A DNA stretch of 64,000 bases from Vulgatibacter incomptus. Lineage in GTDB: Bacteria > Myxococcota > Myxococcia > Myxococcales > Vulgatibacteraceae. A program made the translations under genes and the position numbers. Numbering within the stretch: the stretch's first letter is position 1; the number at the start of each line of letters is the position of its first letter. The notes beneath the pieces are model-generated. The model saw nothing but the letters and a program-made list of their open reading frames with translations, searched no databases and was not told the DNA's origin. The stretch is from contig NZ_CP012332.1 in the NCBI RefSeq assembly GCF_001263175.1, forward strand, positions 2,105,501 through 2,169,500. Direction: 5' to 3'. Below, one piece after another: positions 13,173 to 20,081 of this stretch.

Positions 13173-13193
13173 CGGAGGCCCTCGTGGCCTCCG
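13173..13193 (+). terminator. Hairpin after the Crp-type regulator
   Basis: Perfect 8-bp arms CGGAGGCC and GGCCTCCG enclose a CTCGT loop, 28 bases after the stop codon. There is no following T-run, so it may be a weak or Rho-assisted terminator. Confidence 0.45.
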
Positions 13194-13300
13194 TCGGCGT
13201 TCTGGGTATCGCGCAAGGAGGAAGCGACCCGAGAAGGGCGGTCCCCGGGGCGGCGGAAGTGCCCAGGTTGCTCGTCCTGGCCTCTTTCCGTCCCCGACCC

Positions 13301-14365
13301 ATGAACCTCGCAGCCGTCGCCGATCCGGCGCTGCTCTCGGCAGCCAGCGCGCTCCCTCCCCACTACGTCGGGCAGGAGGAGCTCCTCGCTGCCCTGCGCG
13401 CCCGCTGGTCGGGGCACCACTTCAACCTCGACCGCCTCGACCAGCTCCACCGGGCCGTGGGTGTGGAGGGCCGGCACCTGGCGCTTCCGCTCGCGGACTA
13501 CGAGGGCCTCGACTCCTTCGCCAAGGCCAACCGGGCGTGGGTCGAGGTCGCGTCCGCCCTCGGGGAGAAGGCGGCCCGCCTGGCCCTCGACCGCGCGGGT
13601 CTCGGCCCCGGCGACGTGGACCGGATCTTCTTCGTCTCCACCACCGGCATCGCCACGCCGAGCGTCGACGCGCTCCTGACGAACCGCCTGGGCCTCCGGG
13701 ACGACGTGAAGCGCACGCCGATCTTCGGCCTGGGCTGCGCGGCGGGCGTGGCAGGAGTGGCCCGAGCGGCGGACGTCCTCCGCGCGTTTCCCGGGGAGGT
13801 GGCGCTGCTGGTCTCGGTGGAGCTCTGCTCCCTCACGCTCCAGCGTGACGACTTCTCCATCGCCAACGCCATCGCCACCGGGCTCTTCGGGGACGGGGCC
13901 GCGGCGGCGGTGATCGCCGGCGCCGACCGCGGGAGCGGACCGCGGATCGAGAGGACACGATCCGTGTTCTATCCGAACACAGAGGACGTGATGGGCTGGA
14001 ACGTGGTCGAGGGCGGCCTGCGCATCGTGCTCTCTGCGCAGATCCCGTCCCTGGTCCGCGAGCGGATCGGAGGCGACGTGGACGCGTTCCTGCGGTCCAG
14101 CGGCGTCTCTCGCACGGACGTCCGGCAGTGGATCTGCCACCCAGGCGGTCCGAAGGTCCTCGAGGCCCTCGCCGAGACCCTGGGCCTGACTCGCGACGCC
14201 CTCGCGCGGACCTGGCGGACCCTGGAGAAGGTGGGGAACCTCTCGTCGGCCTCGGTGCTCTTCGTCCTCGAGCAGACCCTGGAGGGGGCCGCTTCCGGCG
14301 ACACCGGGCTCATGCTGGCCATGGGCCCGGGCTTCTCCACCGAGCTGGTGCTCCTCCGATGGTGA
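13301..14365 (+). CDS. Type III polyketide synthase
   Basis: This is a homodimeric chalcone-synthase-type enzyme that extends an acyl starter with malonyl-CoA and cyclises the product, probably to an alkylresorcinol or alkylpyrone. The 354 residues contain the full triad: Cys146 (GLGCAAGVAG), His280 (ICHPGGPKV) and Asn313 (GNLSSASVLF). The second conserved block GLFGDGAAAAVI and the C-terminal GPGFSTEL loop are present. I took the ATG at 13301 rather than an open upstream stretch because MNLAAVADP begins the fold. It is the first gene of a four-gene unit and overlaps the methyltransferase gene by seven bases. Long-chain starters are suggested by the acyl-AMP ligase and ACP downstream. The exact ring type cannot be read from sequence. 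Confidence 0.92.
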   Translation: MNLAAVADPALLSAASALPPHYVGQEELLAALRARWSGHHFNLDRLDQLHRAVGVEGRHLALPLADYEGLDSFAKANRAWVEVASALGEKAARLALDRAGLGPGDVDRIFFVSTTGIATPSVDALLTNRLGLRDDVKRTPIFGLGCAAGVAGVARAADVLRAFPGEVALLVSVELCSLTLQRDDFSIANAIATGLFGDGAAAAVIAGADRGSGPRIERTRSVFYPNTEDVMGWNVVEGGLRIVLSAQIPSLVRERIGGDVDAFLRSSGVSRTDVRQWICHPGGPKVLEALAETLGLTRDALARTWRTLEKVGNLSSASVLFVLEQTLEGAASGDTGLMLAMGPGFSTELVLLRW

Positions 14366-14943
14366 AGCTCTACCTCTTGCTCCTCGCCCTCCTGGTGGCC
14401 GAGCGGATCTTCGAGATCCGACTATCGCGGCGAAACGCCAGGCAGGCCCGGGAGCGGGGCGCCGTCGAGGCGGGCGCCGCTCACTATCCGGCCGTGGTGG
14501 CGCTGCACACCCTCTTCCTCGTCTCCTGCCTCGTCGAGCCGGTCATGCTCCTGAGGCGTCCGTGGCCGGTGGCCAGCGTCATCGCTCTCGGGATCGTCGT
14601 GGCCGCCCAGGCCCTCCGCTACTGGGCGGTTTTCACGCTGGGTGAGAGATGGAACGTCCGGATCCTCGTGATCCCCGGAGCCCAGCCCGTCACATCCGGC
14701 CCCTACCGCTTCGTTCGCCACCCGAACTACGTGGCGGTGGCCCTCGAGATCGCGTTCTTCCCGCTGATCACCGGCGCTTGGATCACGGCCGTTCTCTTCA
14801 GCCTCGCCAACTTCGCGCTCCTCCGGGTGCGGATCCGGGAGGAAGAGGCCGCGCTGGGCGACGAGTGGGCCAGCTCGTTCGCGGACAAGCCCCGCTTCCT
14901 CCCGACGGAGCTTCCGATCTCCGACACCGAGGATCCTCCATGA
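14359..14943 (+). CDS. Isoprenylcysteine carboxyl methyltransferase-family membrane enzyme
   Basis: This is an integral membrane methyltransferase of 194 residues with about four or five hydrophobic helices (2-16, 48-68, 74-95, 130-155). The C-terminal SAM-binding signature of the ICMT family reads PYRFVRHPNYVAV, followed by a buried EEEAALGDEW. Such enzymes next to type III PKSs (BpsB in Bacillus, SrsB in Streptomyces) methylate the alkylpyrone or alkylresorcinol rather than prenylated proteins, and the context here points the same way. It is translationally coupled on both sides: seven bases of overlap with the PKS gene and ATGA overlap with the ACP gene. The substrate assignment is inference from operon and family. 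Confidence 0.87.
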   Translation: MVKLYLLLLALLVAERIFEIRLSRRNARQARERGAVEAGAAHYPAVVALHTLFLVSCLVEPVMLLRRPWPVASVIALGIVVAAQALRYWAVFTLGERWNVRILVIPGAQPVTSGPYRFVRHPNYVAVALEIAFFPLITGAWITAVLFSLANFALLRVRIREEEAALGDEWASSFADKPRFLPTELPISDTEDPP

Positions 14944-15197
14944 GCCCGGCGGAAGAGGAGGTGCTCGCCGAGGTGCGGCGGATCGCGGCGGCGGAGCTCG
15001 GATGGAAGACGCCGATCGATCCCCGCCACGAGCTGGTGGCGGACCTGCGCCTCGACTCCATCGGGATGCTCACCGTCGTCCAGCTCCTCGAGGATCGGTT
15101 CCGGATCGCTCTCGCGGAGGGCGACGAGGCGGAGATCCGCACGGTCGAGGAGCTGGTCCGGCTGGTCGCCAGGCGGCGGGCGGAGGCGGATCGATGA
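14940..15197 (+). CDS. Acyl carrier protein
   Basis: This is a small acidic carrier protein of 85 residues. The phosphopantetheine attachment site is Ser40 in the motif DLRLDSIGML (the usual DSL reads DSI). The four-helix ACP pattern is visible, with the conserved hydrophobic helix II VVQLLEDRF. After modification by a phosphopantetheinyl transferase encoded elsewhere it would carry an acyl thioester. Placement between the methyltransferase and the acyl-AMP ligase, with four-base ATGA overlaps on both sides, implies it receives an activated fatty acid from the ligase and hands it to the type III PKS. It is not the housekeeping AcpP, which has the motif DSLDxVEL and lies with fatty-acid genes. 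Confidence 0.88.
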   Translation: MSPAEEEVLAEVRRIAAAELGWKTPIDPRHELVADLRLDSIGMLTVVQLLEDRFRIALAEGDEAEIRTVEELVRLVARRRAEADR

Positions 15198-16954
15198 AGC
15201 GACGCACGTCCGCCGCGCCGAGCGGCGCGATCCCCCGGCTCGAGCCCGAGGCCCCTTCGATGACGTCCTGCACCACCCTGGTCGACGCCCTCGCCCTCGC
15301 CTCGCGCAGCGACGCCGGCCTCACCTTCCTCGACGCGACGGAGCAGCCGACGCCGCTCTCCTTCCGCTCCCTCCGCGCCACGGCGAGTCGGATCGCGGGC
15401 GCGCTCTCGAGGCTGGGCGTGAACGTCGGCGATCGGGTCGCCCTGGTGCTGCCCACGGCGCCCTCGTTCCCGGAGGCGTTCTTCGGCGTGCTCCTCGCCG
15501 GGGCGGTGCCGGTGCCGCTCTACCCGCCCCTGCGCCTCGGCCGCCTCGCGGAGTACCACGAGCGCACCGGGCGCATGCTCGAGGTCTGCGGCGCACGCCT
15601 GGTGCTCACCGACGCGAGGATCCGCAGGCTCCTGGGGCAGGCCGTGGGCCGCGCCCGCCCGGTCCTCGGATGCCGAACCATCGACGAGCTCCTGAGCAGC
15701 GGCGCCGACGAAGCCGAGCGCCGCCCCGAGGCCGGCGACCTCGCGCTCGTCCAGTTCTCCTCGGGGACCACCGACCGCCCGAAGCCCGTGGCGCTCACCC
15801 ACGCGAACGTGCTCGCCAACCTCCGCGCCATCGCCGACGCGATCCGCGACGGTCTCGGCCCCAGGCCGGCGGGGGTCTCGTGGCTGCCGCTCTACCACGA
15901 CATGGGGCTCATCGGCTGCCTGCTCCAGGCCGTGCACTTCCCCGGCGATCTCACGCTGATCCCGCCGGAGGTCTTCCTGGCGAGGCCGGCGATCTGGCTC
16001 CGCGCGATGTCCCGCACGGGCGCCGGAATCTCGGCGGCCCCGGACTTCGCCTACGGCCTCTGCGCGAAGCGAATCCGCGACGAGGAGCTGGAGGGCGTCG
16101 ACCTCTCGCGGTGGCGGATGGCGCTGAACGGCGCGGAGCCGATCGCACCCAGCGTCCTTCGTGCATTCACGGAGCGCTTCTCGCGCTTCGGCTTCGATCC
16201 CAAGGCCCTCACCCCGGTGTACGGGCTCTCGGAGGCGACCCTCGCGGTCACCTTCTCCCGAATGGACCGTCCATTCACGACGCGTGAGATCGACGGACGC
16301 CAGGTGGTCTCCGTGGGATCCCCGCTGTCCGGCGTGGAGCTGGAGATCCGTGGGCAGAAAGGCGAGCGCCTCGCGGAGGGAGCCGTGGGGCGCATCCTCG
16401 TCCGTGGCCCGTCGGTCGCCGAGGGCCACGTCCGCGACGCGGGCGCCGAGGACGGATGGCTGGACACGGGCGACCTCGGCTGCCTAGCGTCGGGGGAGCT
16501 CTTCGTCTGCGGCCGCGCCAAGGAGGTGATCATCGTCCGCGGGGCGAACCACAGCCCGCACACGATCGAGGCCAGCCTTGGCGGGATCGAGGGCCTGCGC
16601 GCCGGCTGCGCCGTGGCGGTCGGCTTCGCGCCGGAGAGGGACGGCGGCGAGGAGCTGGCCATCGTCGCGGAGCTGGCGAAGGACACGATTCCGAGCCCCG
16701 ATCTCGAGCGCCGGATCCGGGACGCGGTCTTCGGCGCGACGGGGTTGGTCCCGCACACCATCCGCCTCGTCCCCCCTGGCACCCTGCCGCGCACTTCGAG
16801 CGGCAAGCTTCGGCGGCAGGAGACCCGGCGCCAACTCGAAGCCGGTGAGCTCGGTCCGCCTGCCAAGGTCGGTCCCCTCCTCCTCGCCACCGAGCTCCTC
16901 CGCTCGTCCCTCGCCTTCCGCCTCGCCCGATCTCGGCCGCCGAAGCGCCGGTAG
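15194..16954 (+). CDS. Fatty-acyl-AMP ligase (FAAL-type adenylating enzyme)
   Basis: This is an ANL-superfamily enzyme of 586 residues that activates a fatty acid with ATP. The phosphate-binding loop FSSGTTDRPKPV is at about residues 187-198. The adenine/acyl motifs VYGLSEATLAV and GWLDTGDLG follow, and the catalytic Lys motif near the C-terminus is RTSSGKLRR. The segment VPLYPPLRLGRLAEYHERTG is characteristic of FAALs, which transfer the acyl-adenylate to an ACP rather than to CoA. That fits the ACP gene overlapping upstream. It is the last gene of the operon, and its start ATGA overlaps the ACP stop. The extra 20 residues before the domain are low-complexity. Chain-length preference is unknown. 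Confidence 0.9.
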   Translation: MKRRTSAAPSGAIPRLEPEAPSMTSCTTLVDALALASRSDAGLTFLDATEQPTPLSFRSLRATASRIAGALSRLGVNVGDRVALVLPTAPSFPEAFFGVLLAGAVPVPLYPPLRLGRLAEYHERTGRMLEVCGARLVLTDARIRRLLGQAVGRARPVLGCRTIDELLSSGADEAERRPEAGDLALVQFSSGTTDRPKPVALTHANVLANLRAIADAIRDGLGPRPAGVSWLPLYHDMGLIGCLLQAVHFPGDLTLIPPEVFLARPAIWLRAMSRTGAGISAAPDFAYGLCAKRIRDEELEGVDLSRWRMALNGAEPIAPSVLRAFTERFSRFGFDPKALTPVYGLSEATLAVTFSRMDRPFTTREIDGRQVVSVGSPLSGVELEIRGQKGERLAEGAVGRILVRGPSVAEGHVRDAGAEDGWLDTGDLGCLASGELFVCGRAKEVIIVRGANHSPHTIEASLGGIEGLRAGCAVAVGFAPERDGGEELAIVAELAKDTIPSPDLERRIRDAVFGATGLVPHTIRLVPPGTLPRTSSGKLRRQETRRQLEAGELGPPAKVGPLLLATELLRSSLAFRLARSRPPKRR

Positions 16955-17021: not shown

Positions 17022-18824
17022 TCAGAACTTCCAGGTGAGACCTCCCTGGAACGCCTCGTGTACGGAGCCGTCGAGGCCGAGGCGGACGGAGGCGTAGCCG
17101 TCGACGAAGACGTCGTCGAGGAGCTCGACGGAGGCGAGCGGGAGGGGGCTGGCGCCCAGGTTCAGGCTGGAGCCGAGCTCGACCTGCGGCCTGTCGGACG
17201 AGTCGATCGAGCGGGCGAAGAGCGGGGTCGCCGGATCCAGGCGATCGATCAGGCCTGCGCCTGCGGCGAGTGAGACGCGCTCGCTGAGGCGAAGGATCCA
17301 GCCGCCTCGGACTGCCCACTGCCACCGGCGGAAGGCGGACGACGCTGCTCGCGGATCCACCGCGACGGTCCCGGCCTCCAGGCCCAGCATCAGGCTGCTC
17401 CGGTTCCCGAGGTAGAGGCGAGCCTGGCTGCCCAGCATGGGGAGCCAGTAGAGCCCGTCGCTCGTGTACGCCGGGCCGAGGCGGGTGTGGAGGATCGCCT
17501 CGAAGGCGCCGGGCCGGCCCAGGCGCCACGAGACGGCGACGGGGAGAGGCGCCAACTCGACTCGGTCGGTGAGACCGACGCGGAGCCCGACGAAGCCGCC
17601 GAGCTCGGCGTCTGCGTTCCCGGTGTAGCGGGCGCTCGAGAGCGTCCGGCCCATAGCGAGCTGCAGCGCCCATTGGCCGGGCGAGAGCGTCGAAGGCGGA
17701 GGCTCGGCGGCGCCCTTCGACGCCAGGGGCTCCCTTCCGACGGCGTGGAGCTGGTCTTCCCGGAGCTCCAGGCGGGCGCCGGCCTTCAGATCGAGCTCCC
17801 GCGCGAAGGTGCCGGCCTCGGTCCGCCGGCGCACGAGGTACCGGCCCGCCGGAAGGGCGGCGACGACCCGCCTCCTGCCCGGCGGCAGCTCGAGGACCTG
17901 GAGCCCGGTGTCGAGGCGGATGAGCTGGAGCGGGCCCTCCTCCTGCAGGAGGGCGACCTGGTTCGGGCTGCCCTCGATCCGCGCGAGGGTGAGGTCGCGG
18001 CGGCCGCGCAGGTTGACCTCGAAGCTCGGGCGCTGCGGCTGGCCCGTGGCGAGGGCGCTGTCGCGCACGGTGAGGAGCTGGGCGTAGTCGAAGGCCTCGT
18101 GGAGGGTGACCTCGCCCCGCCCGTTCCGGTCGGCGGCGCCGCGGAGGGCGGCGACCAGGTGGTGGGTGAAGAAGGATCCACCGAGGGCCTCCGACTCGTG
18201 GGCGTCGTCGAGGCCGGAGCTCGCCGCGAGGAGCACGGAGCCTTCGCTCCCGAGGACCAGCGGCGCCTCCACCTCGAAGTCGGGGGCGGGGCGGAGCCCC
18301 TTGGCGCCCGTCCACGCGCCGCCGTTGCACGCGTCGACGATGCCGACCCGCACGGCGGCCCGTGGGTCGGAGAGGCGCCGCTTCAGCTCGGCCAGCGGCA
18401 GCGGCCTGCCGCCGGAATAGAGCGCGGCGCCGTCGGCGTGGCCGGAGAAGTAGAAGAGGAGGAGCGTCTCCCCGCTCGTGGCTCCGAGGGCGGCGAGGCG
18501 ACGATCGAGGGCCCGCAGGATCTCTTCGGGGCGGGCGTCGAGGAAGGTCTCGACGTCGGACGGGGAGAAGCCGGCGACCTCGACGAGCGTCCGCGCGAGG
18601 CTCTGCGCGTCGTCGTGGGCGTAGCGGAGCGCGCGGCGGCCATCGACGGCGGCGTTCGCCCCGACGATCACGGCCATCCGGGTGGCGGCGAGAGCGGGCG
18701 ACGCGAGGGCCAGGAGCGCGAGACCGAGGATCGCAGATGGCAGGAGGGCGAGAGCGCGACCGCCTCCGCGGGCCGGGAGAGGTCCCCCTGCCCCTGGCGG
18801 CCCGATCCCGCTGTCGCCGATCAT
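17022..18824 (-). CDS. Exported caspase-like peptidase fused to a C-terminal beta-barrel
   Basis: This 600-residue protein has an N-terminal hydrophobic segment ending PALAA (cleavage near residue 47). A caspase/metacaspase-like p20 domain at about 48-290 has His129 in FYFSGHADG and Cys166 in DACNGGA as the expected dyad. A middle region carries a PEGA-like strand pattern (PPGRRRVVAALPAGRYLVRR). Residues about 378-600 form a beta-barrel-like module that is a paralog of the protein encoded at 11381-12154. If exported as predicted, the protease would face the periplasm while the barrel sits in the outer membrane. The start ATG overlaps the anti-sigma stop by four bases (ATGA). Protease activity and targets are inference. 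Confidence 0.82.
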   Translation of the reverse strand: MIGDSGIGPPGAGGPLPARGGGRALALLPSAILGLALLALASPALAATRMAVIVGANAAVDGRRALRYAHDDAQSLARTLVEVAGFSPSDVETFLDARPEEILRALDRRLAALGATSGETLLLFYFSGHADGAALYSGGRPLPLAELKRRLSDPRAAVRVGIVDACNGGAWTGAKGLRPAPDFEVEAPLVLGSEGSVLLAASSGLDDAHESEALGGSFFTHHLVAALRGAADRNGRGEVTLHEAFDYAQLLTVRDSALATGQPQRPSFEVNLRGRRDLTLARIEGSPNQVALLQEEGPLQLIRLDTGLQVLELPPGRRRVVAALPAGRYLVRRRTEAGTFARELDLKAGARLELREDQLHAVGREPLASKGAAEPPPSTLSPGQWALQLAMGRTLSSARYTGNADAELGGFVGLRVGLTDRVELAPLPVAVSWRLGRPGAFEAILHTRLGPAYTSDGLYWLPMLGSQARLYLGNRSSLMLGLEAGTVAVDPRAASSAFRRWQWAVRGGWILRLSERVSLAAGAGLIDRLDPATPLFARSIDSSDRPQVELGSSLNLGASPLPLASVELLDDVFVDGYASVRLGLDGSVHEAFQGGLTWKF

Positions 18825-19486
18825 CTCCCGGCCTTCGGGATCGCGAGCTCGGTGCGCCACGCGGCTCGGTCGAGGCCGACCGGGCCCCGGTCCAGCGCGA
18901 TGGCGAGGCGCTCCGCGCCTGGCGCCGGATCGAGCTCCCAGGTCCCCGGGACGAAGAAGGGACCCGAGCCGGGAACCTCGCCCTCGAAGAGCGGGGTCCA
19001 GGATCCCGACGCCGGATCCCACATGGCGAGGAGGGCGTGGGTGTAGGACTCCGGCGTGATGCGCACGCGAAGCCGGTCGCCGGGCTGCAGCGCGGTGGCG
19101 CCGTCCCAGAGGCGCACCCGCTCTCCCCTCTTGACGTAGATCGCCACGGAGGGCGCGCCCTTGGCCGCGATCCATCCGGGCGTCTCGTCCGCGGGCGGCT
19201 CCGCGACCCGCGCGTGCCCGAACCAGCCCAAGGCGACGCCAGCGGCGAGGGCCGGCCCGGCGATCCCGGCCCAGAGCCTCGGGCGGCGGGTCGCCGGGAG
19301 CACGGTGACCATGTTCTGGCGGCGCAGCCGATCCCGGAGGTCCGGGAGGTGCGGGAGCTCTCCCGGATCCACCCGAGCCAGGTGGGCCGAGCAGCTCGTG
19401 CAGGCGCCCACGTGCCGCCGCACCTCGGGCAGATCTTCACCCAGCGCGAGTCGGTCGAGCACCAGGAAGGATGGATGTCCGCTCAT
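18821..19486 (-). CDS. Membrane anti-sigma factor with zinc-finger and DUF4384-like domain
   Basis: This is a 221-residue single-pass membrane protein. The N-terminus carries the anti-sigma zinc motif His25-x3-Cys29-x2-Cys32 (RRHVGACTSC), which in this family grips the sigma factor. A single transmembrane helix spans about 71-90 (LWAGIAGPALAAGVALGWFG). The periplasmic part, about 100-221, resembles DUF4384: a beta-rich region beginning YVKRGERVRLWDGATALQPG, as seen in many bacterial stress and kinase proteins. It should hold the ECF sigma factor encoded just upstream until an envelope signal releases it. Start and stop overlap the neighbouring genes by four bases each, so sigma, anti-sigma and caspase are co-translated. 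Confidence 0.85.
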   Translation of the reverse strand: MSGHPSFLVLDRLALGEDLPEVRRHVGACTSCSAHLARVDPGELPHLPDLRDRLRRQNMVTVLPATRRPRLWAGIAGPALAAGVALGWFGHARVAEPPADETPGWIAAKGAPSVAIYVKRGERVRLWDGATALQPGDRLRVRITPESYTHALLAMWDPASGSWTPLFEGEVPGSGPFFVPGTWELDPAPGAERLAIALDRGPVGLDRAAWRTELAIPKAGR

Positions 19487-19956
19487 ACCCCGACCTCCTC
19501 CGCCCGGCGGCGGTCGAAGCGCTCGAGGAGCCTGCGGACGGTTCGCTCCGAGGCCCCGAGGATCCCGGCGATCTCGAGCTGACCCAGCCGATCGAAGCGT
19601 TGGAGGATCGCCGCCTCGAGCTCACGGGGCGGCGTGGTCCTGGCGAGCCGCTCCAGCTCCCAGCGCGCCTCCAGGACTCCGTCGGGGCCTGGGCTTTCGA
19701 CTTCGAGAGGAAGCGACGTGTTCGCGATCCGCTTGCGCTGCCGGAGCCTGTCGACTGCGAGGCGTGTGCTGGTCCGATACGCCCACGCCGTGACCGTGCG
19801 GGGATCGCTCCCCGCGAGCCCGTTCTGCCAGAGGCGGATGAAGGTCTCCTGGGCCACGTCCTGTGCCTCGTCGGGATCGGCGAGCATGCGGGCACACTTC
19901 TCCCGAATCATCGGAAAGCACCTCCGATAGGCCTCGTCGAGGGTCTCGCGATCCAC
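19483..19956 (-). CDS. ECF-type RNA polymerase sigma factor
   Basis: This is a 157-residue alternative sigma factor with only regions 2 and 4. Region 2 includes ADPDEAQDVAQETFIRLW, the helix that binds core polymerase. Region 4 ends in the helix-turn-helix LEIAGILGASERTVRRLL. It is the first gene of the operon and its TGA overlaps the anti-sigma ATG. ECF sigma factors usually activate their own operon, so the caspase-barrel gene is the most likely regulon member here. I cannot identify the promoter sequence with confidence in the 125 bases upstream. The family is ECF; the subgroup is not determined. Confidence 0.92.
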   Translation of the reverse strand: MDRETLDEAYRRCFPMIREKCARMLADPDEAQDVAQETFIRLWQNGLAGSDPRTVTAWAYRTSTRLAVDRLRQRKRIANTSLPLEVESPGPDGVLEARWELERLARTTPPRELEAAILQRFDRLGQLEIAGILGASERTVRRLLERFDRRRAEEVGV

Positions 19957-20081
19957 GTCGCTCCCGGTAATTGCGGCGTCTCGAAGCTAGGGACGAACAG
20001 CGCAGGGGAATCCGGACACGGTACACGGATTCGACACAAACGTGGTCCGACGCAAGGTCCGGGAGAGGGGTACCCCTTCCG

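Follow-up and report, generated by a model that had tools for sequence, protein, structure and literature searches.

A 64,000-base stretch of the genome of the soil bacterium Vulgatibacter incomptus (the window, C1:2105501-2169500 of the complete 4,350,553-base genome) contains an operon of three genes, encoding an extracytoplasmic function (ECF) sigma factor, a membrane anti-sigma factor and a predicted exported caspase fused to a beta-barrel. We propose, with a probability of about 40%, that these genes form an autoregulated circuit in which a periplasmic caspase, anchored by its barrel, matures itself, leaves the barrel and cuts the anti-sigma factor to free the sigma factor. The genes, their predicted domains and promoter, and the conservation and co-inheritance of the circuit are well supported; we infer the three cuts, their order and the release of sigma.

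In the proposed mechanism, the zinc domain of the anti-sigma factor would keep sigma at the inner membrane, while its DUF4384-like domain would be displayed to the periplasm. An envelope signal of some kind, for which the regulator class suggests envelope stress, would activate the caspase. The caspase would then cut its own loop after Lys175, could detach from the barrel by a cut after Lys370, and would cut the anti-sigma factor after Lys109, next to the membrane, as the site-1 cleavage. Finally, in a scheme of regulated intramembrane proteolysis, a site-2 protease would liberate sigma, and freed sigma would transcribe its own operon and genes for a few exported proteins, so that the response is amplified.

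The three candidate cuts fall at Lys-Gly (KG) pairs, which, like the promoter described below, were absent from the initial annotation and provide a concrete mechanism for its idea. Conservation was assessed in alignments of close relatives (n = 24), a wider caspase set (n = 67) and the anti-sigma family (n = 69). In the models of both proteins the disordered stretches are poorly conserved apart from a few positions. Among 62 linker columns, defined by a predicted local distance difference test score (pLDDT) below 50 in both proteins, with the anti-sigma stretch extended by four residues, to 110, nine are at least 75% conserved; the three KG pairs provide six of them, the rest being M1, F183 and W72. 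In the anti-sigma factor the pair separates the membrane helix from the DUF4384-like domain. Lysine is exchanged for arginine 11 times at K370 and twice at K175, as expected of a protease that prefers a basic P1 residue, and other exchanges are nearly absent at these two sites; in the anti-sigma family the few deviating sequences have Met, Ser or Arg at K109. Processing of caspases and metacaspases takes place in the stretch following the catalytic cysteine. A KG pair at position +9 after this cysteine was found in all eight readable members of the family; the 11 other Peptidase_C14 proteins of the phylum that could be read all lack it. All three modules of the host genome have a basic residue followed by Gly at all three sites. 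Together with the Asp of the DxC motif, the linker sites suggest that the window caspase may cut after Lys or Arg. The P1 specificity of orthocaspases is for Arg or Lys, and self-cleavage of MaOC1 occurs after Arg219 (PMC7475262).

The same sites can be read differently. The caspase could be an output only: the anti-sigma factor would sense the signal unaided or with the help of the usual site-1 and site-2 proteases, and sigma would raise the level of a periplasmic caspase whose role is to process or clear other proteins of the envelope or the surface. In that case, the caspase's own KG pairs would serve self-maturation, and that of the anti-sigma factor would be structural or cut by another protease. 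This is a realistic possibility, and several observations speak for it or against the proposed circuit. First, the tie of the anti-sigma KG to a neighboring caspase is not clean, as 10 of the 13 anti-sigma factors lacking a caspase gene directly downstream retain the pair (genes downstream were classed by open reading frame and profile only); caspases encoded elsewhere in those genomes could act on it in trans. Second, three of the 53 anti-sigma factors with a downstream caspase were scored as lacking KG (two read MG, and one possibly has a misread frame), and the clear cases without KG and without the caspase neighbor come from two loci of one genus, that is, one evolutionary event. Third, the anti-sigma KG, situated at a domain edge, might simply cap the DUF4384-like fold, and the geometry of the catalytic dyad is judged from fold and alignment. 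The promoter described below would place the caspase under sigma, and in some variant loci the third gene encodes a lipoprotein, in others only a barrel-like protein; promoter and variants also suit a caspase that is an output.

What the output-only explanation leaves unaccounted for is the occurrence of the same dipeptide in the linkers of both proteins and the existence of caspase-DUF4384 fusions elsewhere. Cyanobacteria have orthocaspases with a fused DUF4384, and the domain also occurs in a clade of alphaproteobacterial pseudo-orthocaspases (PMC7475262, PMC6426788); such fusions hint at contact between the caspase and the DUF4384-like domain. In the Craspase system, the caspase-like protein Csx29 cuts Csx30, an inhibitor of an ECF sigma factor (PMC10028731). 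Because of the shared dipeptide, the fusions, and this precedent of a caspase-like protease freeing an ECF sigma factor by cutting its inhibitor, we place the caspase as trigger slightly ahead of the caspase as output. Craspase (Csx29-Csx30-CASP-sigma) resembles the window operon in combining a caspase-like protease, a protein inhibitor and an ECF sigma factor, activated in Craspase by the inhibitor cut; unlike it, Craspase has an RNA-triggered CHAT protease and a different inhibitor, and lacks a membrane anti-sigma factor and a barrel; the two are not homologous as systems.

The initial annotation had described three overlapping genes, and all of them are present, consecutive on the minus strand from 19956 to 17022, both junctions being 4-base ATGA overlaps. 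The product of the third matches PF00656 Peptidase_C14 (48.1 bits vs a cut-off of 21.4; 1.6e-12), with the His-Cys dyad in SGH and DxC motifs. In its AlphaFold2 model (mean pLDDT 86.7) the caspase domain has the caspase-hemoglobinase fold and resembles Arabidopsis metacaspase 4 (Z 22.4, 2.6 A, 204 residues) and human procaspase-7 (Z 22.1, 2.4 A, 199 residues). The caspase-like dyad proposed earlier was borne out by this fold and by its invariance in 24/24 close relatives and in the wider set; since it is invariant in 67/67 sequences, its activity appears to be under selection, and the domain would be an active protease. Likewise, the C-terminus, earlier called beta-barrel-like, is modelled with confidence as a barrel; it has about ten to twelve strands and its last residue is Phe, combining a barrel fold with the C-terminal aromatic residue of outer-membrane barrels. 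Among the best Foldseek matches are the outer-membrane barrels 4rl8 (TMt 0.54), FapF (0.53), FadL and OmpG. Export, also predicted in the initial annotation, is read from the signal-like N-terminal sequence, and a hydrophobic N-terminal segment is present across the caspase relatives. The protein is probably exported, and its barrel presumably inserted into the membrane. Both ends of such outer-membrane barrels normally face the periplasm, which would be expected to place the caspase domain in that compartment.

FecI-FecR-FecA surface signalling involves a sigma factor, a membrane anti-sigma factor and an outer-membrane barrel with a periplasmic N-terminal domain. The window operon has the same layout, and a bare barrel-like protein is the third gene product in some loci, both consistent with contact signalling, where the barrel would take the signal, the periplasmic caspase domain would touch the anti-sigma domain, and catalysis would be secondary. 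We consider this improbable, as a dyad without a single exception would be unexpected were catalysis dispensable, and in the alignment of close relatives no part of the protein is less conserved than the barrel. Compared with FecA, the window protein has a protease domain in place of the TonB-receptor signalling domain, and its barrel, known from the model, need not be a TonB receptor.

In the anti-sigma factor, the H-x3-C-x2-C zinc motif of ZAS-type proteins is present, although it is not universal in the wide family set. The claim of a zinc-finger anti-sigma factor holds, with H25, C29 and C32 kept in 24/24 close relatives and zf-HC2 matched in 20 of the 69 family members. The DUF4384-like domain of the initial annotation was confirmed in part. 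At the level of the family, DUF4384 was matched in 24 of the 69 proteins at E <= 0.01 (best 3.8e-6), with the matches falling on the periplasmic half. The window protein itself has no convincing Pfam match and does not reach the curated cut-off of DUF4384 (PF14326), of which the host genome contains no match at all. It is best described as related to DUF4384 and not filed as a member, the name being right for the family as judged by sequence. Comparison of the anti-sigma model with the PDB gave nothing at E <= 0.001. From the gene order, the protein would bind and inhibit its cognate sigma factor.

The sigma gene product matches Pfam Sigma70_r2 (6.6e-13), Sigma70_r4_2 (4.9e-5, under the gathering score) and TIGR02937 sigma70-ECF (6e-16, above cut-off); it has sigma regions 2 and 4 only, and all three matches agree with the earlier assignment to the ECF class. 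The predicted promoter ahead of the gene reads TGTCCGGATTCCCCTGCGCTGTTCGTC (20018-19992). Of 23 sequences compared, those of the window and of 22 close orthologues, 21 carry TGKCCG-N17-CGTY ahead of sigma, with a spacing of invariably 17 bases; since this ECF-type promoter precedes sigma so consistently, the operon is very likely autoregulated. Shuffled sequences contained the element 0.12 times on average and twice at most, a comparison that is post hoc because the element came from an enrichment scan of the same sequences, and the fixed spacing is the stronger argument for a promoter. An inverted repeat, GAATCC-N13-GGATTC (window 20008-20032), overlaps the -35 side of the promoter and may be due to chance.

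The exact promoter pattern occurs only twice in the 4.35-Mb genome. The copy outside the window (C1:3130183-3130209, minus strand) lies 33 bases ahead of a gene for a Cys-rich exported lipoprotein, a possible target of the window sigma factor. This gene is followed by a second one of its kind (DUF7107, Dickkopf_N-like; L128 4451-5650 and 3182-4438, minus strand); an Rfam search at the second promoter yielded no match. In three relatives, genes for exported proteins are preceded at 37-55 bases by exact copies, and two of these adjoin the caspase operon. Were the caspase an output, these proteins and the lipoprotein could be its substrates. Such copies are leads and do not amount to a regulon: in a promoter search of 24 other genomes the extra matches were mostly intragenic or faced no good start. 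The two paralogous sigma genes of the same genome lack a promoter of the window type, which probably means that the modules differ in specificity.

The initial annotation had called the arrangement unusual. It is in fact common, and rarity can be dismissed: caspase relatives were found in 159 of 193 Myxococcota genomes. Conservation of gene order, on which that annotation had made its proposal depend, was examined in the best 80 caspase relatives in named genome contigs: sigma, anti-sigma and caspase genes follow in this order on one strand in 68/80. The order extends beyond Myxococcota, to bins assigned to Fibrobacter, Spirochaetaceae, Aminicenantes and FCPU426. At each of the two junctions an overlap of 4 bases is seen more often than any other spacing (46/68 and 42/68), although choosing the start nearest the previous stop favors overlaps. 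Sigma and caspase are co-inherited: the Mantel correlation of their sequence distances is r = 0.87 (0.83 and 0.83 for the other gene pairs; permutation maxima 0.11-0.14). In the host genome all three Peptidase_C14 genes stand directly behind one of its 22 sigma-70 region-2 genes; because of this and the recurrence of the order in relatives, chance association is excluded.

Several related loci differ in content. The paralogous caspase at L132 4393-6876 (C1:3181892-3184375) has a long repetitive insert of the G-A-Q-x-S/G-V-G type before its C-terminal region, and the anti-sigma factor of that module retains KG and has no clear zinc motif. At L238 1560-2165 and L247 1560-2165 the product of the third gene is small, exported and barrel-like, and has no caspase domain. 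At L281, L286, L289 and L293 the third gene encodes a more distant class of exported caspase, the anti-sigma dipeptide being RG in the first three and KG in L293.

The pairing of sigma and caspase is not new in itself, having been published in 2012. That paper (Asplund-Samuelsson 2012, PMC3501461) reports metacaspase-sigma operons in Myxococcus, Anaeromyxobacter, Haliangium, Sorangium, Ralstonia and Fibrobacter; the Myxococcus xanthus-type operons, predicted in the same phylum and also in Fibrobacter, join a caspase homologue to a sigma-70 factor, and an anti-sigma gene, export, a barrel, a promoter or linker sites of the window type are not described in the text examined. No account of export, the barrel, the anti-sigma domain, the promoter or the linker sites was found in the literature searched; the 2021 ECF classification may list the gene context.

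Other bacterial caspases share only some of these features. Orthocaspases such as MaOC1 have a similar HC dyad, and their basic P1 specificity and self-cut are suggested for the window protein by its sequence; unlike MaOC1, the latter has predicted export, a barrel and a sigma operon. EACC1 and EACC2 caspases resemble it in having variable C-terminal domains, and EACC2 is often encoded beside an ECF sigma gene; the text examined on them (PMC8195603) does not mention a form that is exported and has a barrel. The EACC1-associated caspase model (NF047832) is the nearest in NCBIfam, and membership was rejected, the score of 56.1 bits being far under the cut-off of 140. Assignment to a defence system was also discarded, PADLOC giving no match. 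Large myxobacterial genomes carry many caspase paralogues, and developmental lysis is suggested for these genes in PMC3501461; the enzyme might therefore be an effector of cell death or predation, acting on its own envelope during lysis or on neighbors via outer-membrane vesicles. This seems very unlikely to us, given that the caspase also occurs in the bins assigned to Fibrobacter, Spirochaetaceae and Aminicenantes and in genomes with only one to three copies, and that the defence library gave no match.

Table 1. Features of the sigma/anti-sigma/caspase operon, with positions in the window.
Feature	Position	Strand	Basis
ECF-type promoter (predicted), TGTCCGGATT-N13-CGTC	19992..20018	-	35 bases ahead of sigma start codon
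ECF sigma factor, 157 aa, GTG start	19483..19956	-	Pfam and TIGR02937 matches
Membrane anti-sigma factor, 221 aa	18821..19486	-	4-base overlap with sigma gene; family alignments
Anti-sigma zinc motif H25-x3-C29-x2-C32	19391..19414	-	Invariant in 24/24 close relatives
Anti-sigma predicted transmembrane helix, ~residues 72-91	19214..19273	-	Hydrophobic stretch; model helix 78-89
Anti-sigma K109-G110, juxtamembrane, candidate cleavage site 3	19157..19162	-	K 63/69, G 67/69; neighbors variable; low-confidence linker end
Anti-sigma DUF4384-like periplasmic beta domain, ~residues 112-200	18887..19153	-	DUF4384 matches in family; pLDDT 95-98
Predicted exported caspase-barrel protein, 600 aa	17022..18824	-	4-base overlap with anti-sigma gene; Peptidase_C14; model
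Signal peptide, residues 1-46, predicted cut ASPALA/ATR	18687..18824	-	Read from sequence; hydrophobic N-terminus of relatives
Caspase domain, residues 48-284	17973..18683	-	Fold match in AlphaFold2 model
Catalytic His129	18438..18440	-	Invariant in 24/24 and 67/67
Catalytic Cys166	18327..18329	-	Invariant in 24/24 and 67/67
K175-G176, 9 residues past Cys166, candidate self-processing site 1	18297..18302	-	K/R 67/67, G 67/67; pLDDT <50 at 175-179
Small all-beta domain, ~residues 285-365	17730..17972	-	Model strands at high pLDDT; alignment conservation
K370-G371, protease/barrel linker, candidate release site 2	17712..17717	-	K/R 66/67, G 60/67; pLDDT <50 at 369-373
C-terminal outer-membrane-type beta-barrel, residues 385-600, last residue Phe	17025..17672	-	Strands mostly at pLDDT ~90; Foldseek

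The convergent neighbors on the plus strand (window 13184-16954), judged by reading their translations only, resemble a type III polyketide synthase, an isoprenylcysteine-type methyltransferase, an acyl carrier protein and an acyl-AMP ligase.

The proposed circuit may extend to the whole family as an envelope switch that amplifies itself. A caspase tethered to the outer membrane would read a single motif, a Lys or Arg followed by Gly, three times, for maturation, detachment from the barrel and the site-1 cut of the anti-sigma factor. We hold this generalization to be rather doubtful. If true, it would mean that a caspase initiates a transcription response across the envelope, as an extracytoplasmic counterpart of Craspase, and caspases would join the short list of site-1 proteases controlling ECF sigma factors. 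The natural substrates of common bacterial caspase homologues are largely unknown, and here the genome points to a co-translated anti-sigma factor. With exact candidate scissile bonds and a reporter-ready promoter, the function of a large family of exported caspases becomes testable in a culturable myxobacterium.

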